10,747 nt of DNA, taken from contig JAGLBH010000044.1 of assembly GCA_018260285.1 (NCBI GenBank), forward strand, positions 1 through 10,747, in the 5' to 3' direction. The position numbers and the translations under genes were made by a program. The DNA comes from Arthrobacter sp. GTDB taxonomy: Bacteria > Actinomycetota > Actinomycetes > Actinomycetales > Micrococcaceae. The notes below the pieces were generated by a model, which was given only the letters and a program-made list of their open reading frames with translations, had not been told where the DNA came from and made no database searches. This document shows positions 290 to 10,595 of this stretch, piece by piece (the first letter of the stretch is position 1; every line of letters begins with the position of its first letter).

Positions 290-409
290 GTTACGGCTGT
301 CATAGCGTGGGGGAAACGCCCGGTCCCATCCCGAACCCGGAAGCTAAGGCCCACAGCGCCCATGGTACTGCACTCGTGAGGGTGTGGGAGAGTAGGTCGC
401 AGCCGGACA
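290..409 (+). rRNA. rrf: 5S ribosomal RNA
   Basis: This is a complete 5S rRNA of about 120 nt. The 5' end (GTTACGGCTGTC) pairs with the 3' end (GCAGCCGGACA) to form helix I. Internal landmarks typical of actinobacterial 5S are GGGGGAAACGCCCGGTCCCA, CCGAACCCGGAAGCTAAG and GGGAGAGTAGGTCGC. It lies downstream of 23S on the same strand and is followed directly by a T-run and hairpins. The ends are set by helix I pairing and could be off by one or two bases. Confidence 0.96.
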
Positions 410-600: not shown

Positions 601-706
601 TCCAGGTCACGGCCGGCTTCTCCAGACCACGGACACCTTCAACCCGTTTCCCGCGGGTCCGGGCGGGAAGACGGCCGTGGTCTGGACAAGGCGGCCAGAA
701 CCTGGA
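601..706. repeat. 106-bp palindromic element, copy 1
   Basis: This is a large imperfect inverted repeat. The left arm 601-632 and right arm 675-706 are both 32 bases and complementary at 27 of 32 positions. They flank a 42-base centre that holds the 8-bp palindrome CCCGCGGG (650-657). The ends are TCCAGG and CCTGGA. The same element recurs at 8960-9065 with 88 of 106 positions identical and no gaps, and similarity stops exactly at the inverted ends. No target-site duplication or encoded protein is evident. It may be a MITE-like or REP-like non-autonomous element; the class is not established. Confidence 0.88.
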
Positions 707-984: not shown

Positions 985-1872
985 TTAGCAGGGGCGGATC
1001 GTCGACGTCGTCGTCTGGCCGCTGAGGGTCTCAGACGGAGCGATCGTGTAGCCGCTTGCTGCGGGAACGCTTTCCGTGATGGTTGCGCTCTGGATGGAGG
1101 ACGTCAGGGTGAAGTCGTTCCAGCCGTACGCAGTCGGGAAGTAAATCTGTGCCGGCATGAAGTTGACCTGGCCATAGCGGTTGGTGCCGCTCGAGGTGAC
1201 TGTTGCAGCCACCGTCGTGGTGTAGGTGATCACGCCGGTGAGGGTCTTGGAGCCGTCGGCGTTGGTCGTGATGGTCGGAGCAGCGGCGTTCCACGTGCCC
1301 GCGACGTTGCTGTAGGCAAGAGTTCCCGAGCCCGTCGTGGTTGAACGCGTGCCGGAGAGGCTCTTGTTCCAGACCTGGTTGTTGATCTTGATGTTCTGCA
1401 GGGTCCACGTGGAGTTTGCGCCAGCCGGGACGGTCAGGGACACCGTCGTGGTGAACTGTGCGCCAGAAGCAAGCGTGGAGCTGCCACCGGAAATGGGGGC
1501 ACCGGCAGAGGTCTGCGGGGTGCTCCACCAGAAACCGCTGATCGACGTGTAGGAGCCTGCAGTGCCCGTGGCGCCGTTGGTGACGGGGGTGAAGGAGCCC
1601 TCACCATTGGTGAACAGGTTGCAGTCCGTGGGGCGGCCCGTTGCCTGGTTCCAGTTGAGGTCGCTGTTGACGCCGTTGGTGCCGTCATTGCCGCCTGCAT
1701 AGCCGGTTCCGCCAGAGGTGGAGGAGCCTGAGACGAAAACGCCGCTAAGAACGCGAGCGACGGTGGAAGGGGTGGAAGCCGATGCAGACGGCGCCGTGGA
1801 GGCAAGCAGGACTGCGGGCATTGACCACGCGGCCCCTTGGGCGACGCGACGACGCGAGATGGATGAGCTCAT
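985..1872 (-). CDS. Uncharacterised secreted protein with twin-arginine-like signal
   Basis: The product has 295 aa and I do not recognise its family. Residues 1-32 look like an export signal: SRRR at 6-9, a weakly hydrophobic stretch at about 10-28 and a possible cleavage site after ASA (30-32). The twin arginines suggest Tat export, although the motif departs from SRRxFLK. The mature part is rich in Thr, Ser, Gly and Asn, looks beta-rich, and has only two cysteines, C84 and the final residue C295, which could form a disulfide. There is no LPxTG or C-terminal membrane anchor, so release to the outside or loose wall binding is likely. The ATG start has GAGGA 9 bases upstream. The gene is monocistronic with its own terminator. 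Confidence 0.8.
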   Translation of the reverse strand: MSSSISRRRVAQGAAWSMPAVLLASTAPSASASTPSTVARVLSGVFVSGSSTSGGTGYAGGNDGTNGVNSDLNWNQATGRPTDCNLFTNGEGSFTPVTNGATGTAGSYTSISGFWWSTPQTSAGAPISGGSSTLASGAQFTTTVSLTVPAGANSTWTLQNIKINNQVWNKSLSGTRSTTTGSGTLAYSNVAGTWNAAAPTITTNADGSKTLTGVITYTTTVAATVTSSGTNRYGQVNFMPAQIYFPTAYGWNDFTLTSSIQSATITESVPAASGYTIAPSETLSGQTTTSTIRPC

Positions 1873-2604: not shown

Positions 2605-3126
2605 ATGAACTCGCTCTTCTCCCATGCGCCGACGACACAGACAGAGGCGAGCATGTCGCCTGCTTCCCCCAGGGAGGCGCTGCAGGTCGGCGTCTGGACG
2701 CTGCCTGTTCCGCTCGTCGATGCGCTGGCCGGCTTCCTCGAGCACACGCACCTCTGGTGGCCCTCGGAATTCACGGCCGATGAGGGGCACATCTATACAG
2801 AAGCCTCACGGGTGCTGGAGGAGGGGCCTCGCGCTGAGCCGCTCCTTCTGGGCACGCTCAGCATCACGAGGGAGGGCTCGTCGCACGTCTTCCTCGCCTT
2901 CACGCCGACAGATCCGGATCAGACCGGCACTGCCGTCCTGGGACTGGGCTTCGTCAGCGCCGCTCCAGAGTCCGGCCCTACCACGCTGGCGGCTCATGCT
3001 GCGGGAAGCAGCCCGCATCCGGGTTTCGACGGCCCCAGCACGGCGGAGGACTGGCAGGCCCTGGTCGGGTGCTACGCCTCGTTCATGGGCGCCGCTCCCG
3101 CAGGCCAAGACACAGTTAAGCACTGA
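2605..3126 (+). CDS. SRPBCC (AHSA1-like) domain protein
   Basis: The product has 173 aa and resembles the SRPBCC/START-like superfamily, small hydrophobic-ligand-binding folds often annotated as AHSA1 or polyketide-cyclase-like. The main clue is HTHLWWPSEF (47-56), close to the HLWWP motif typical of this group, after an N-terminal strand (about 27-36) and helix (37-48). Strands follow at about 62-70, 79-88 and 94-101, and a C-terminal helix with DW (149-150) at about 145-161. The usual central Gly-rich pattern is weak, so the family call is tentative and the ligand unknown. The first ATG fits a leaderless mRNA. An alternative ATG at 2653 (residue 17) has GAGG five bases upstream. The domain is complete with either start. 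Confidence 0.7.
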   Translation: MNSLFSHAPTTQTEASMSPASPREALQVGVWTLPVPLVDALAGFLEHTHLWWPSEFTADEGHIYTEASRVLEEGPRAEPLLLGTLSITREGSSHVFLAFTPTDPDQTGTAVLGLGFVSAAPESGPTTLAAHAAGSSPHPGFDGPSTAEDWQALVGCYASFMGAAPAGQDTVKH

Positions 3127-3279: not shown

Positions 3280-4362
3280 CTAGTCGCCCAGGCGCTCGCC
3301 CGTCTTCGCGTCGAAGAGGTGCACGTGGCCGCCGACGGGGCGGACGTGGATCGTCTCCTCGGGCTTCGGGGGCTTGCGGCCGTCCACGCGGACGACGACG
3401 GAGCGCTTGACGCCCTTGACCTCAGCCGTGCCGTAGACGTAGGCATCCGCGCCGAGCTCTTCCACGACATCGACGAAGACCGGGAGGCCCTCGCCCTCCT
3501 TGACGAGCTCCAGGTCCTCAGGGCGAACGCCAAGGGTCACGGTGTCTCCGTTGGCCTGCTCCGTGAGGGACGGCGGAACCGGGTACAGCGTGTGGCCGAA
3601 CTCGACGTTCCCAGCCTGGGCCGGCAGTTCGAGCAGGTTCATGGCGGGGGAGCCGATGAAGCCGGCCACGAAGGCGTTGACCGGGCGGTCGTACAGGTTG
3701 CGGGGAGTGTCCACCTGCTGGAGCTCGCCCTTGTTGAGCACCGCCACGCGGTCGCCCATCGTCATGGCCTCGACCTGGTCGTGCGTCACGTAGACCGTGG
3801 TCACGTCGAGGCGGCGGGTCAGCGCGGCGATCTGGGTGCGAGTCTGCACGCGCAGCTTGGCGTCCAGGTTGGAGAGGGGCTCGTCCATGAGGAACACGCG
3901 GGGGCTGCGGACGATGGCGCGGCCCATGGCCACGCGCTGGCGCTGGCCGCCGGAGAGGTTCTTGGGCTTGCGGTCGAGGAACTCCTCGAGGTCGAGCAGT
4001 TTGGCCGCCTCCTGGACGCGCTGCGCGCGCTCTTCCTTGCTCACGCCCGCGATCTTCAGGGCGAAGCCCATGTTCTCAGCAACGGTCATGTGCGGGTAGA
4101 GGGCGTAGTTCTGGAAGACCATGGCCACGTCGCGCTCCTTGGGGGAGGCGTGGGTGACGTCGTCGTCCCCGATGAGGATGCGCCCGTCAGTGACCTCCTC
4201 GAGGCCTGCGAGCATGCGCAGCGTGGTGGACTTGCCGCAGCCCGAGGGGCCGACGAGCACGAGGAACTCGCCGTGCGGAATGTGCAGTGAGATCTCGTTG
4301 ACGGAGTTTCGCTCAGCGCCGGGGTAACGGCGAGAGGCTTTGTCGAAAGTGACCGAAGCCAT
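3280..4362 (-). CDS. Sugar ABC transporter ATP-binding protein, MsmK/UgpC family
   Basis: This 360-aa ATPase powers carbohydrate uptake as a cytoplasmic dimer under a sugar permease pair. Motifs in order are Walker A GPSGCGKST (38-46), Q-loop Q84, signature LSGGQ (136-140), Walker B VFLMDEP (156-162) with E161, D-loop SNLD (164-167) and H-loop H194. A C-terminal regulatory/TOBE domain (about 235-360) includes GSPAMN and GVRPEDLEL, as in MsmK, UgpC and MalK; the length is normal. The start at 4362 is chosen because AAGGGA lies just upstream and MASVTFDKA is the usual family N-terminus. An in-frame ATG five codons earlier is possible. No permease or binding protein is adjacent, so it may be a shared ATPase for several sugar importers. 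The substrate is not readable. Confidence 0.93.
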   Translation of the reverse strand: MASVTFDKASRRYPGAERNSVNEISLHIPHGEFLVLVGPSGCGKSTTLRMLAGLEEVTDGRILIGDDDVTHASPKERDVAMVFQNYALYPHMTVAENMGFALKIAGVSKEERAQRVQEAAKLLDLEEFLDRKPKNLSGGQRQRVAMGRAIVRSPRVFLMDEPLSNLDAKLRVQTRTQIAALTRRLDVTTVYVTHDQVEAMTMGDRVAVLNKGELQQVDTPRNLYDRPVNAFVAGFIGSPAMNLLELPAQAGNVEFGHTLYPVPPSLTEQANGDTVTLGVRPEDLELVKEGEGLPVFVDVVEELGADAYVYGTAEVKGVKRSVVVRVDGRKPPKPEETIHVRPVGGHVHLFDAKTGERLGD

Positions 4363-4411
4363 GATCTTTCCCTTCACGGGCAGGTACGTGCCCGACGATC
4401 CGAAATGAACG

Positions 4412-4430
4412 GAAAACCGATGCGGTTTTC
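4412..4430. promoter_or_regulatory. 19-bp palindrome upstream of the ABC ATPase, possible operator
   Basis: GAAAACCG (4412-4419) and CGGTTTTC (4423-4430) are perfect 8-bp inverted arms around ATG. The site lies 50-68 bases before the ABC ATPase start at 4362, inside the 137-base gap after otsAB. Its symmetry and position suit a repressor dimer site for sugar control. A small hairpin that helps end otsAB transcription is the main alternative. Confidence 0.5.
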
Positions 4431-8818: not shown

Positions 8819-8892
8819 GCTTCCTTAGCTCAGTTGGTTAGAGCGCTCGCTTCACACGCGAGAGGTCGCTGGTTCGAGTCCAGTAGGAAGCA
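8819..8892 (+). tRNA. tRNA-Val (anticodon CAC)
   Basis: This is a 74-nt cloverleaf. The acceptor GCTTCCT (8819-8825) pairs with AGGAAGC (8885-8891), and the discriminator is A8892. The D arm is GCTCAGTTGGTTAGAGC and the T loop is TTCGAGT. The anticodon stem CTCGC/GCGAG closes TTCACAC with CAC at 8853-8855, reading GUG valine codons. The 3' CCA is not encoded. Confidence 0.96.
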
Positions 8893-8898
8893 CCGCTG

Positions 8899-8934
8899 AA
8901 GGCGGCCCGGAATCATTCCGGGCCGCCTTTGTGT
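8899..8934 (+). terminator. Intrinsic terminator of tRNA-Val
   Basis: Bases 8899-8913 and 8915-8929 are perfect inverted arms around a single C, so the real stem is about 12 bp of G/C with a short A/T loop. It is followed by TTTGTGTTT. It begins six bases after the tRNA end. The T-run is interrupted but adequate. Confidence 0.88.
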
Positions 8935-8959
8935 TTGCCCGTCGTGATGAGCGAACTTG

Positions 8960-9065
8960 TCCAGACTGCGGCCGCCTTCTCCAGACGGCGGACACCTTCG
9001 GCCCGAAATCCGCGGATCCAGGCGGGAAGACGGCCGTGGTCTGGAGAAGGCGGCCGAAACCTGGA
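8960..9065. repeat. 106-bp palindromic element, copy 2
   Basis: This is the second copy of the element at 601-706. Arms 8960-8991 and 9034-9065 are 32 bases, complementary at 27 of 32 positions, around a 42-base centre. The centre holds ATCCGCGGAT (9008-9017), where copy 1 has a C-G pair in place of one T-A pair. The two copies align without gaps over all 106 bases (88 identical), and similarity ends at TCCAG and CTGGA. It starts 26 bases after the tRNA-Val terminator T-tract. No target duplication is visible. Confidence 0.88.
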
Positions 9066-9518
9066 CGCGGGGCGGGCGAGGCTTCTTAGTGGGCCTGCCC
9101 AGGGTGGCATCGGCGAGGCTGCAGGGTGGTGCGGGCGAGGCTCCTCGAGGCCGCTGGCCCCTACACCCCCGAGGATTCCATACGCCCCCGGAGATGTGAG
9201 GGGGTTAGGGAAGCGCCGGGGGTGTAAGGGACTGCGCCCCCGAGAAATCGGGGGTGGCAGAAGGCGGACCCCTGAAAAACCGGGGGCGGTGGCAGGTGCG
9301 CCCCCGAGAAGTCGGGGGTGCTCTCAGGAGGCCCCCAAGAAACCGGGGGCGGATCGCCTCCGGGCCCTTCGCCGTCGTCCGCGCGGATCCCCGCCCGCGT
9401 GCGGGGCGCGCCGTCGCAGATGGTGGGGCCAAGACGCGGAGAGTAAGCTCGAAGGTGCGCCGAATCGCGGTCGCTCCCGCCCTTGCCCCTTTCAGTCAGA
9501 ACAGGTCAGCATCTCTCC
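9066..9518. other. Gene-free region before femX
   Basis: These 453 bases are very GC-rich and hold no supported gene. They contain a hairpin array (9162-9349) and a possible -10 box TAAGCT (9444-9449) that would give a femX leader of about 60 bases. Open frames through the region come from G/C-rich repeats. The array is either upstream of the femX promoter or, if transcription begins earlier, part of its leader. Confidence 0.6.
9162..9349 (+). repeat. Array of C5/G5 hairpins with about 32-bp spacing
   Basis: Four related hairpins start at 9237, 9269, 9301 and 9332, spaced 32, 32 and 31 bases. The first and third have perfect 7-bp stems CCCCCGA/TCGGGGG with loops GAAA (9244-9247) and GAAG (9308-9311). 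The second (9269-9284) and fourth (9332-9349) keep a C4-5/G4-5 stem and an A-rich loop with altered inner pairs. Upstream, TACACCCCCG (9162-9171) pairs perfectly with CGGGGGTGTA (9217-9226) around an inner stem of CCCCC (9185-9189) and GGGGG (9200-9204). Spacer sequences are only loosely alike. It looks like a diverged tandem duplication of a structured unit. Confidence 0.82.
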
Positions 9519-10595
9519 ATGGTGAACTTCACTGCTCGCTTTGCCACTGCCCAGGAAATCGTCGACTGGGATGATCACGTCACGGCGAACCCCAATGGCG
9601 GCAACATGCTTCAGTCCGCGTCCTTCGCAGAGGTGAAGTCCAAGTTCGGGTGGACCCCTCGGTTCCTCGTCCTCGAGGCGCCCGGCGTGCAGCCGAGCTT
9701 CAACCTGGTCCTGGAGAAGTCCAACGGCCCGCTCGGCAAGCTCTGGTACATGATCAAGGGCCCCGACGTCGCGGCCCCGGAGCACGTGGTTCCCGCAGCG
9801 GATGCGGTGACGCGCATGATCAAGGAGCGCAAGCTCGGGGTCTTCGCCGTCAAGATCGAGCCGGACGTGCTGGCCTCGGAGGAGACCCACCGGCTCCTCA
9901 CGGAGGGCGGGCTCGTCAAGACCTTCGACATCCAGCCGAATGACAACACCGCCGTCCTGGACACGAGCCTCGACGAGCAGCCGCTGCTGCGCTCTCTCCA
10001 CTCGCGCGGGCGCAACGCGATCCGCCGGGCCCTCCGCGAAGGCGCAGACGCCCAGTGGGTGGAGCCGACGGATGAGAACTTCCGCATCATGTACGCCCTT
10101 ATGAACCAGGTCCAGGACCGCAACGCCATCACGCTGCGCCCGTACGAGTACTACCGCAACTTCTGGCAGAACTTCGTGGACGCCGGCCAGGGCCGCCTCT
10201 ACTTCGCCTACGAGGACGGGGAGCCGGCAGTGGGCGCGTTCGTCGTCAGCTACGGCCGCAAGGGCACGTACAAGGACGGCGGCTCCAAGCCCCGCCGCAA
10301 GCAGTACGGCGACTCGCACCAGCTGCAGTGGAAGGCGATCCTGGACCTCAAGCAGGACTTCGACATCCAGGAGTACGACTTCTGCGGCACGCCCCCCGCG
10401 AGCGAGCTCAAGAACTCTGAGCACAAGCACTACGGCCTGGGCCTCTTCAAGACGAGCTTCACGAAGACCGTCATCTCTTACGTGGGCTGCTACGACGCCG
10501 TCGTGGACCCGGCGCGCTACCGCGTCTGGACCACGGTGGGGGAGAAGGTCGCCCGCAACCTCTGGGACCGCAAGCACCACCAGCCGTTCTACTGA
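9519..10595 (+). CDS. femX: FemX/FemAB-family peptidoglycan bridge aminoacyltransferase
   Basis: The product has 358 aa. FemXAB enzymes move amino acids from aminoacyl-tRNA onto lipid II to build the peptidoglycan cross-bridge at the inner membrane face. The sequence shows two GNAT-like halves (about 1-150 and 160-345). Family-like segments are GGNMLQSASFAEVKSKFGW (27-45), NDNTAVLDTS (141-150), SLHSRGRNAIRRA (159-171), the acceptor strand RLYFAYEDGEPAVGAFV (226-242) and the late motif EYDFCG (285-290) with GLGLFKTSF (306-314). The usual coiled-coil insertion seems short. The ATG at 9519 is chosen because the upstream in-frame TTG (9483) adds no homologous residues; the binding site is weak (AGGT). 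Micrococcaceae commonly have bridged peptidoglycan, which fits. The added amino acid cannot be read from sequence. Confidence 0.87.
   Translation: MVNFTARFATAQEIVDWDDHVTANPNGGNMLQSASFAEVKSKFGWTPRFLVLEAPGVQPSFNLVLEKSNGPLGKLWYMIKGPDVAAPEHVVPAADAVTRMIKERKLGVFAVKIEPDVLASEETHRLLTEGGLVKTFDIQPNDNTAVLDTSLDEQPLLRSLHSRGRNAIRRALREGADAQWVEPTDENFRIMYALMNQVQDRNAITLRPYEYYRNFWQNFVDAGQGRLYFAYEDGEPAVGAFVVSYGRKGTYKDGGSKPRRKQYGDSHQLQWKAILDLKQDFDIQEYDFCGTPPASELKNSEHKHYGLGLFKTSFTKTVISYVGCYDAVVDPARYRVWTTVGEKVARNLWDRKHHQPFY

Follow-up and report, generated by a model that had tools for sequence, protein, structure and literature searches.

The question raised by this locus is what kind of unit lies at positions 601-706 of the window (the whole stretch of Arthrobacter sp. 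DNA analysed here, 10,747 nucleotides in length) and recurs at 8960-9065. Small bacterial intergenic repeats are usually explained as simple-ended MITEs or as REP hairpins. The two copies align without gaps, with 88 of 106 positions identical, and form the largest direct-repeat family of the window; what a sequence-only reading had noticed was in this respect reproduced by alignment and by repeat search. DNA and covariance searches of the source genome (G000, a draft of 1.98 Mb, ca. 2.0 Mb, in 395 contigs and 82% complete) raised the number from two to 17, all of them in this single draft genome of one strain: two on the contig of the window (C334) and one each on C34, C373, C22, C326, C66, C346, C119, C155, C99, C369, C368, C47, C382, C7 and C381. 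Fourteen are whole, C7 is without the first of the modules described below, and C119 and C47 are truncated by contig ends. The C381 copy was found at E 0.03 with copy a (601-706) as the query, at E 7e-13 when the query was longer and included copy b (8960-9065), and at 85 bits with a covariance model that was built from these same copies.

Pairwise identity between copies has a median of 79% (range 62-91%). When their 200-bp flanks were compared by BLAST, the only matches were repeats of a second family (family B, see below), a right flank of ~65 bp common to C326 and C369, and one 16-bp match. No gene called by a purpose-made codon-usage script overlaps any of the 17 copies, all of which are intergenic; this is the pattern of the defined non-coding unit that had been proposed and not that of a conserved coding sequence. 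The 106-bp element was described nowhere among the matches listed in open-licence papers. Rfam 15 at gathering score left it unmatched, the window giving only 5S, two tRNAs and msiK, and no match was obtained for copy b in a plasmid collection, for copy a in a phage collection, or for four exact patterns in viral contigs. The evidence supports a discrete non-coding unit that is dispersed in the genome and keeps one module order throughout.

Alignment of all 17 copies shows four near-identical 20-bp modules, two direct and two inverted, around a 26-bp centre. The consensus runs from L1 (TCCAGATCACGGCCGCCTTC) and L2 (TCCAGATCACGGACACCTTC) through a centre near GGCCCGATTTCCGCGGATCCGGGCCT to the inverted R2 and R1. 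Each arm consists of two modules and is 40 bp long, and pairing between arms is imperfect (32 of 40 positions in each window copy); the 32-bp arms and 42-bp centre of the initial description are corrected accordingly. The orientation of each copy was fixed from the centre, ahead of any look at gene context. The parts of the window referred to here and below are the following.

292..408, + strand, 5S rRNA gene, 192 bp upstream of copy a (Rfam RF00001, 99.8 bits)
601..706, + strand, copy a of the 106-bp element (repeat, DNA and covariance searches)
601..620, + strand, module L1 of copy a (copy alignment)
621..640, + strand, module L2 of copy a (copy alignment)
641..666, + strand, 26-bp centre of copy a, which sets the orientation (copy alignment)
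667..686, - strand, module R2 of copy a, inverted (copy alignment)
687..706, - strand, module R1 of copy a, inverted (copy alignment)
8819..8894, + strand, tRNA-Val (cac), 65 bp upstream of copy b (ARAGORN, Rfam)
~8900-8935, terminator-like hairpin between tRNA-Val and copy b (by eye)
8960..9065, + strand, copy b of the 106-bp element (repeat, DNA and covariance searches)
8960..8979, + strand, module L1 of copy b (copy alignment)
8980..8999, + strand, module L2 of copy b (copy alignment)
9000..9025, + strand, 26-bp centre of copy b (copy alignment)
9026..9045, - strand, module R2 of copy b, inverted (copy alignment)
9046..9065, - strand, module R1 of copy b, inverted (copy alignment)
9157..9356, + strand, repeat family B, adjoining copy b and separate from the element (~65-bp head, then hairpins at 32-bp period)

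All four modules follow the consensus TCCA-N6-GGMCRCCTT, in which TCCA and GGMCRCCTT are conserved and positions 5-10 vary. Over the 14 complete copies, mean site diversity was 0.04 at module positions 1-4, 0.37 at positions 5-10 and 0.06 at positions 11-19, with position 20 variable too in L2 and R1. This profile repeats in all four modules, as indicated by a mean between-module correlation of 0.61, the best of 20,000 permutations reaching 0.60. Some position-specific bases are common to the copies (GGACACC in L2 and a CAAGG or GAAGG junction), and for L2, R2 and R1 modules at the same position in different copies exceed those at other positions in identity, albeit only modestly. The shared module order and the position-specific bases indicate that the unit spread whole. 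The module pattern, searched through the genome with up to three mismatches, gave 48 matches, as against five for a reversed control pattern; with six exceptions (C335, C66:6098, C81, C108, C330 and C374), which are chance matches, all fall inside the 17 copies or at their edges. At the same tolerance the assembled sequence (82% complete) gave no sign of solo modules, solo ends or a longer element sharing these ends, so that the full-length transposon which the sequence-only reading had proposed to look for did not appear there.

The arms were also compared with each other. At positions 6-10 of the 14 copies, L2 and R2 were identical at 42 of 70 sites (44.5 in shuffles) and L1 and R1 at 24 of 70 (25.1 in shuffles); with shuffled pairing as the reference, no compensatory changes between paired arms were detected in these copies. 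The counts omit C7, and neither the inclusion of this misregistered copy nor the counting of G-U pairs changed the outcome. RNAalifold reported double changes in three of 31 pairs, with an unfavourable covariation term. As RNA, each window copy folds better than 200 of 200 shuffles, and the single-strand folding z-scores of six sequences range from -4.6 to -7.7; any palindrome folds in this way. We infer that conservation acts on sequence-specific sites and not on pairing, the module cores being preserved as if read by a protein. Since positions 5-10 vary, the cores are conserved and compensatory changes were not detected, putative protein-binding sites fit the alignment better than a conserved RNA hairpin.

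The TCCAG/CTGGA ends first described do delimit a unit; their exact sharpness does not hold across the family. To the right of the 106 bp most copies continue as CTGGA-YGCA, and flank positions 13, 20 and 39 on the left, and 1-4, 8 and 10 on the right, lie above the 99th percentile of random columns. In view of these conserved flank positions, the real ends may lie slightly beyond 601-706. The comparison of flanks for target duplications, also suggested at the outset, gave no consistent duplication in the 15 copies for which both flanks could be read; no exact flank pair exceeds 6 bp, and the one of this length, seen in a single copy, is displaced by one base from the end. With ~79% identity between copies, decay of target duplications is possible.

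Eight of the 17 copies follow a tRNA or 5S gene at a distance of no more than 300 bp: the tRNA-Val and 5S genes of the window, tRNA-Arg (C34), tRNA-Tyr (C326), tRNA-Ser (C346), tRNA-Gly (C119), tRNA-Glu (C155) and tRNA-Leu (C369). The L end is turned toward the 3' end of the RNA gene in all eight (two-sided binomial, 0.008), and for every one of them the model score favours the strand assigned from the centre by a margin above 18 bits; for C381 the margin is just 6 bits. Under random intergenic placement 0.5-1.0 tRNA-linked copies would be expected, as compared to the seven observed, assuming 10-20% intergenic DNA and given the 37 tRNA matches of the genome. The remaining 30 matches have no copy within 300 bp downstream, in a draft genome in which some of them are near contig ends. 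The distance from RNA gene to element ranges from 65 to about 275 bp. A terminator-like hairpin was seen by eye between gene and element in the tRNA cases inspected; a constant spacing from terminators was rejected, as the distances, again by eye, vary. In 13 of the 15 copies that have a called gene (protein or RNA) beside the L end, this gene points at the element (the exceptions are C22 and C7), and all six copies that have same-strand called genes on both sides follow the direction of those genes (binomial, 0.03); the figure is seven of seven if C381, one of whose neighbours was read by eye, is added. Upstream of the C22 element there is a tRNA-like stretch ending in CCACCA and seemingly without one arm (L126, ~10245-10300), called by neither ARAGORN nor Rfam.

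Replication direction was assessed by mapping 16 flanking segments onto the single-contig genome of a sister species (G001), which assumes the gene order of that genome, an order that may differ between species. In twenty 14-kb samples and one 15-kb stretch of G001, non-coding skew was negative at 0.15-0.84 Mb, near zero at 0.92-1.03 Mb, and positive but weak or mixed past 1.14 Mb; by eye, this would place the origin at about 1.05 Mb and the terminus at about 0.1 Mb. Orientation agrees with replication in 11 of the 13 judgeable copies, all but C119 and C382 (binomial, 0.022), and in 10 of 12 (0.039) when C346, close to the uncertain origin, is removed; not counted were C369, which is too close to the terminus, and three copies without a usable match (C7, C368 and C47). 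Replication strand as the only cause of orientation was rejected, as C119 and C382 follow transcription instead. Transcription and replication direction are partly confounded as causes.

Family B, the C-rich neighbour of copy b, has a palindromic head of ~65 bp, after which hairpins such as CGCCCCCGAGAAATCGGGGGTG recur every 32 bp, and occurs at more than 25 places in the genome. It adjoins the element at six loci (C334b, C22, C155, C346, C368 and C382). At C382, near-identical B copies (139 bp, 98%) stand on both sides of the element (L136, 1868-2470), probably as a result of a recent local duplication. Eleven of the 17 elements have no adjoining B, and 23 B places are away from the element. 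According to ARAGORN, a tRNA lies within 300 bp at two of these 23 (C49 and C22) and within ~400 bp at one more (C374), compared with seven of the 17 elements; contig ends cut into several of the B stretches.

The architecture pattern, with 22 matches in the source genome, had none in the sister species G001 and G002, and the covariance model found no copy in either; two weak G001 hits (E 0.37 and 7.5) are not elements. Under strict filters, a setting that recovered only nine of the 17 own copies and may therefore overlook weak relatives, the other 394 genomes of the family (395 including its own) gave none, and the wider occurrence in Micrococcaceae that the sequence-only reading had looked to was not seen in these searches. 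A 28.2-bit family hit (G206) and a 30.8-bit order hit (G698) were judged coding by eye or open frame, 25-26-base matches in G033 and G043 had no modules seen around them, and the five loci matching in a pattern scan of named genomes were all read as chance matches inside genes.

At the orthologous tRNA-Val and tRNA-Glu sites, G001 (69% G+C in the sample) has neither the element nor the neighbour repeat, family B not being seen at the tRNA-Val site, and is ~380 and ~420 bp shorter, respectively, a shortfall of the size of the element plus family B. The sites without the element are not alignable to the base. The tRNA-Arg gap is 434 bp in G001 and 460 bp in G000, 26 bp shorter even though no element aligns in G001; with gap lengths so similar, not every site shows the signature of a simple insertion. 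At the tRNA-Leu and tRNA-Tyr sites G001 has insertion sequences or other genes. An IS1249-type element lies just downstream of the tRNA-Leu terminator of G001 (L191, 3195-4673), the tRNA-Leu gene and its terminator being present twice, one on each side of it, and a similar insertion sequence, by eye, follows tRNA-Tyr (L193, from ~4337). In this genus, the DNA that follows tRNA terminators may be a hot spot for insertions. As a mobiliser of the 106-bp element IS1249 was rejected: its ends (GTTATAGGCCAAAA...) differ, and its transposase was not found in G000.

A survey of the order (396 genomes, own included, overlapping the family survey) yielded a 39.9-bit match in G422, a genome of another family in the same order (88% complete, 7% contaminated), at E 3e-6 for one genome and ~0.002 over both surveys. 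The match consists of an array of 19-bp modules, first in tandem and then inverted, in which a 17-base module stretch, CCAGACCGCGGACACCT, has two differences from the L2 consensus, both at variable positions, and one difference from the L2 modules of the two window copies. The 178 kb sampled from G422 contain another array of this core, and both arrays start, by eye, shortly after the stop codon of a long open frame; the array had no match in plasmid and phage collections. It is probably a distant relative of the element, with a likely common origin.

A script written to detect a tandem pair of 18-22-bp modules and, after it, an inverted pair returned the 14 complete copies and nothing else from 173 kb of G000. 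It returned nothing from 295 kb of G001, 18 kb of G002, 80 kb each of G037, G038, G046 and G003, or a control of 352 kb shuffled in 300-bp blocks. The 178 kb of G422 gave four hits: the two arrays of known core, one of a different core (AGGTAGTCG) and one that looks coding. The array of different core is inverted, is built of 19-bp modules with core AGGTAGTCG/CGACTACCT, and lies at L213, 4037-4112. Coding-like hits were discarded in G422 (L200, one of four), G047 (one of one, 153 kb) and G056 (L250, one of two, 80 kb); a 519-aa open frame also runs across the second G056 hit (L251), which may thus be coding too. These findings are suggestive of an inverted-module architecture that recurs across lineages, and the probable G422 relative in another family suggests the same.

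The best reading of the element, to which we would give about an even chance, is that of a new non-autonomous MITE-like family in one Micrococcaceae lineage, with ends made of tandem putative transposase-type sites. We infer that each end carries two 20-bp protein-binding modules (TCCA-N6-GGMCRCCTT) and that the protein is a transposase, which, acting in trans, would bind the two-plus-two sites, bring the ends together and transpose the element; the DNA immediately following stable-RNA genes and their terminators would be where copies insert by transposition or are best retained. Like a MITE, the element is short (about 100 bp), non-coding and intergenic, has inverted ends (40-bp imperfect arms), is confined to one lineage, and is dispersed in several copies whose flanks are unrelated but for family B, the C326/C369 flank and the 16-bp match. 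The G001 tRNA-Val and tRNA-Glu sites without the element and the probable G422 relative, with at least two arrays, also support a MITE-like unit. It differs from a MITE in that each end is two tandem 20-bp modules and in that its orientation is locked to upstream RNA genes, a bias that is unusual for a MITE and counts against this reading. So do the weak flank conservation, the similar tRNA-Arg gap lengths and the lack of a consistent target duplication, of an autonomous partner or parent insertion sequence in the assembled sequence, and of a candidate transposase (PF01797 and the IS1249 transposase of G001 were looked for in G000). The non-autonomous mobile element proposed earlier stands as the best reading, with no consistent target duplication, full-length element or transposase found to accompany it. 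Tn7-type transposon ends carry several tandem ~20-bp sites per end, inverted between ends. The element resembles them in its tandem ~20-bp sites, similarly inverted, but has no cargo and only 26 bp between its ends.

The orientation rule, the missing mobiliser and the missing target duplication would be better explained if the element were a resident polar protein-binding site downstream of stable-RNA genes, serving as a roadblock or insulator against read-through or separating transcription from replication. We regard this as unlikely, though it would account for the same end facing the RNA gene in eight of eight copies, for the common orientation of the six copies between same-strand genes, for a copy within 300 bp downstream of seven of 37 tRNA matches where 0.5-1 would be expected, and for module cores conserved despite ~79% copy identity. 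It is harder to reconcile with the 30 tRNA matches that have no copy, the absence from the sister species and the variable distance to the RNA gene, and the agreement with replication in 11 of 13 copies partly confounds it. In eukaryotes, the Pol I terminator boxes to which Reb1 or TTF-I binds stand downstream of stable-RNA genes in a fixed orientation; the repeated short putative protein sites of the element, likewise in fixed orientation, are an analogy, with no homology claimed. That the element is a bacterial counterpart of such a protein-bound terminator or fork barrier, i.e. a polar four-site block halting read-through RNA polymerase or replisomes, we consider quite unlikely. If it were so, inverted arrays of 19-20-bp modules, each with a conserved core and a variable spacer, would form a class found repeatedly in high-GC actinobacteria, the core sequence differing between lineages.

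A REP/BIME-like repeat acting via a hairpin in RNA or single-stranded DNA would suit the strong folding of the six sequences and a multi-copy, extragenic, palindromic, lineage-specific element near the 3' ends of genes. It is improbable in view of the absence of arm covariation at positions 6-10, the unfavourable RNAalifold term and the terminator-like hairpin seen between gene and element in the inspected tRNA cases. The Y1/RAYT transposase (Y1_Tnp, PF01797) gave no hit in the 82%-complete G000, and the control search found it in five of 14 named genomes. Unlike REP, BIME or REPIN sequences, the element has no GTAG-type head, its modules are tandem then inverted and not alternating, and its copies number 17 and not hundreds; the REP-like alternative of the sequence-only reading is weakened by the few copies as well as by the lack of a RAYT and of compensatory changes. 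According to PMC2817692, the basic REP/BIME unit is a short palindrome kept by complementary mutations; the 20-bp modules are non-palindromic and show no complementary changes. Passive spread by recombination with family B, in tolerant intergenic DNA downstream of terminators, draws on the six loci at which the two adjoin, on the doubly flanked C382 copy and on the occasional presence of B after tRNA genes too. We find it about equally improbable: 11 of the elements are without B, the 23 separate B places are seldom near a tRNA, and fixed orientation and module conservation would go unexplained. A coding sequence or an assembly artefact, for which one might cite the open frames of 91-198 aa that cross copies and a draft in 395 contigs, is hardly credible, as no called gene overlaps the copies, the 20-bp period is not a multiple of 3, and both the copies and their contexts differ.

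Compared to the usual explanations of small intergenic repeats, the constraint seen here falls on four distinct modules that resemble protein sites, in which the spacer varies and pairing is not constrained, and the unit is oriented by its tRNA and rRNA neighbours. If a transposase is responsible, its insertion-site rule would be worth finding; if a resident protein is responsible, the element would represent a novel means of insulating RNA genes with strong transcription.

Three further features of the window were recorded. Two predicted proteins, at 985-1872 (- strand, apparently secreted) and 2605-3126 (+ strand), matched nothing in NCBIfam or Pfam at the cut-offs applied. Positions 491-545, between the 5S gene and copy a, are taken up by 3-4 units of a 15-bp tandem repeat (CACCCGGGTGCTGCC). 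An msiK RNA leader on the - strand (4362-4421; Rfam RF01747, 53.3 bits) precedes an ABC-transporter ATPase gene.
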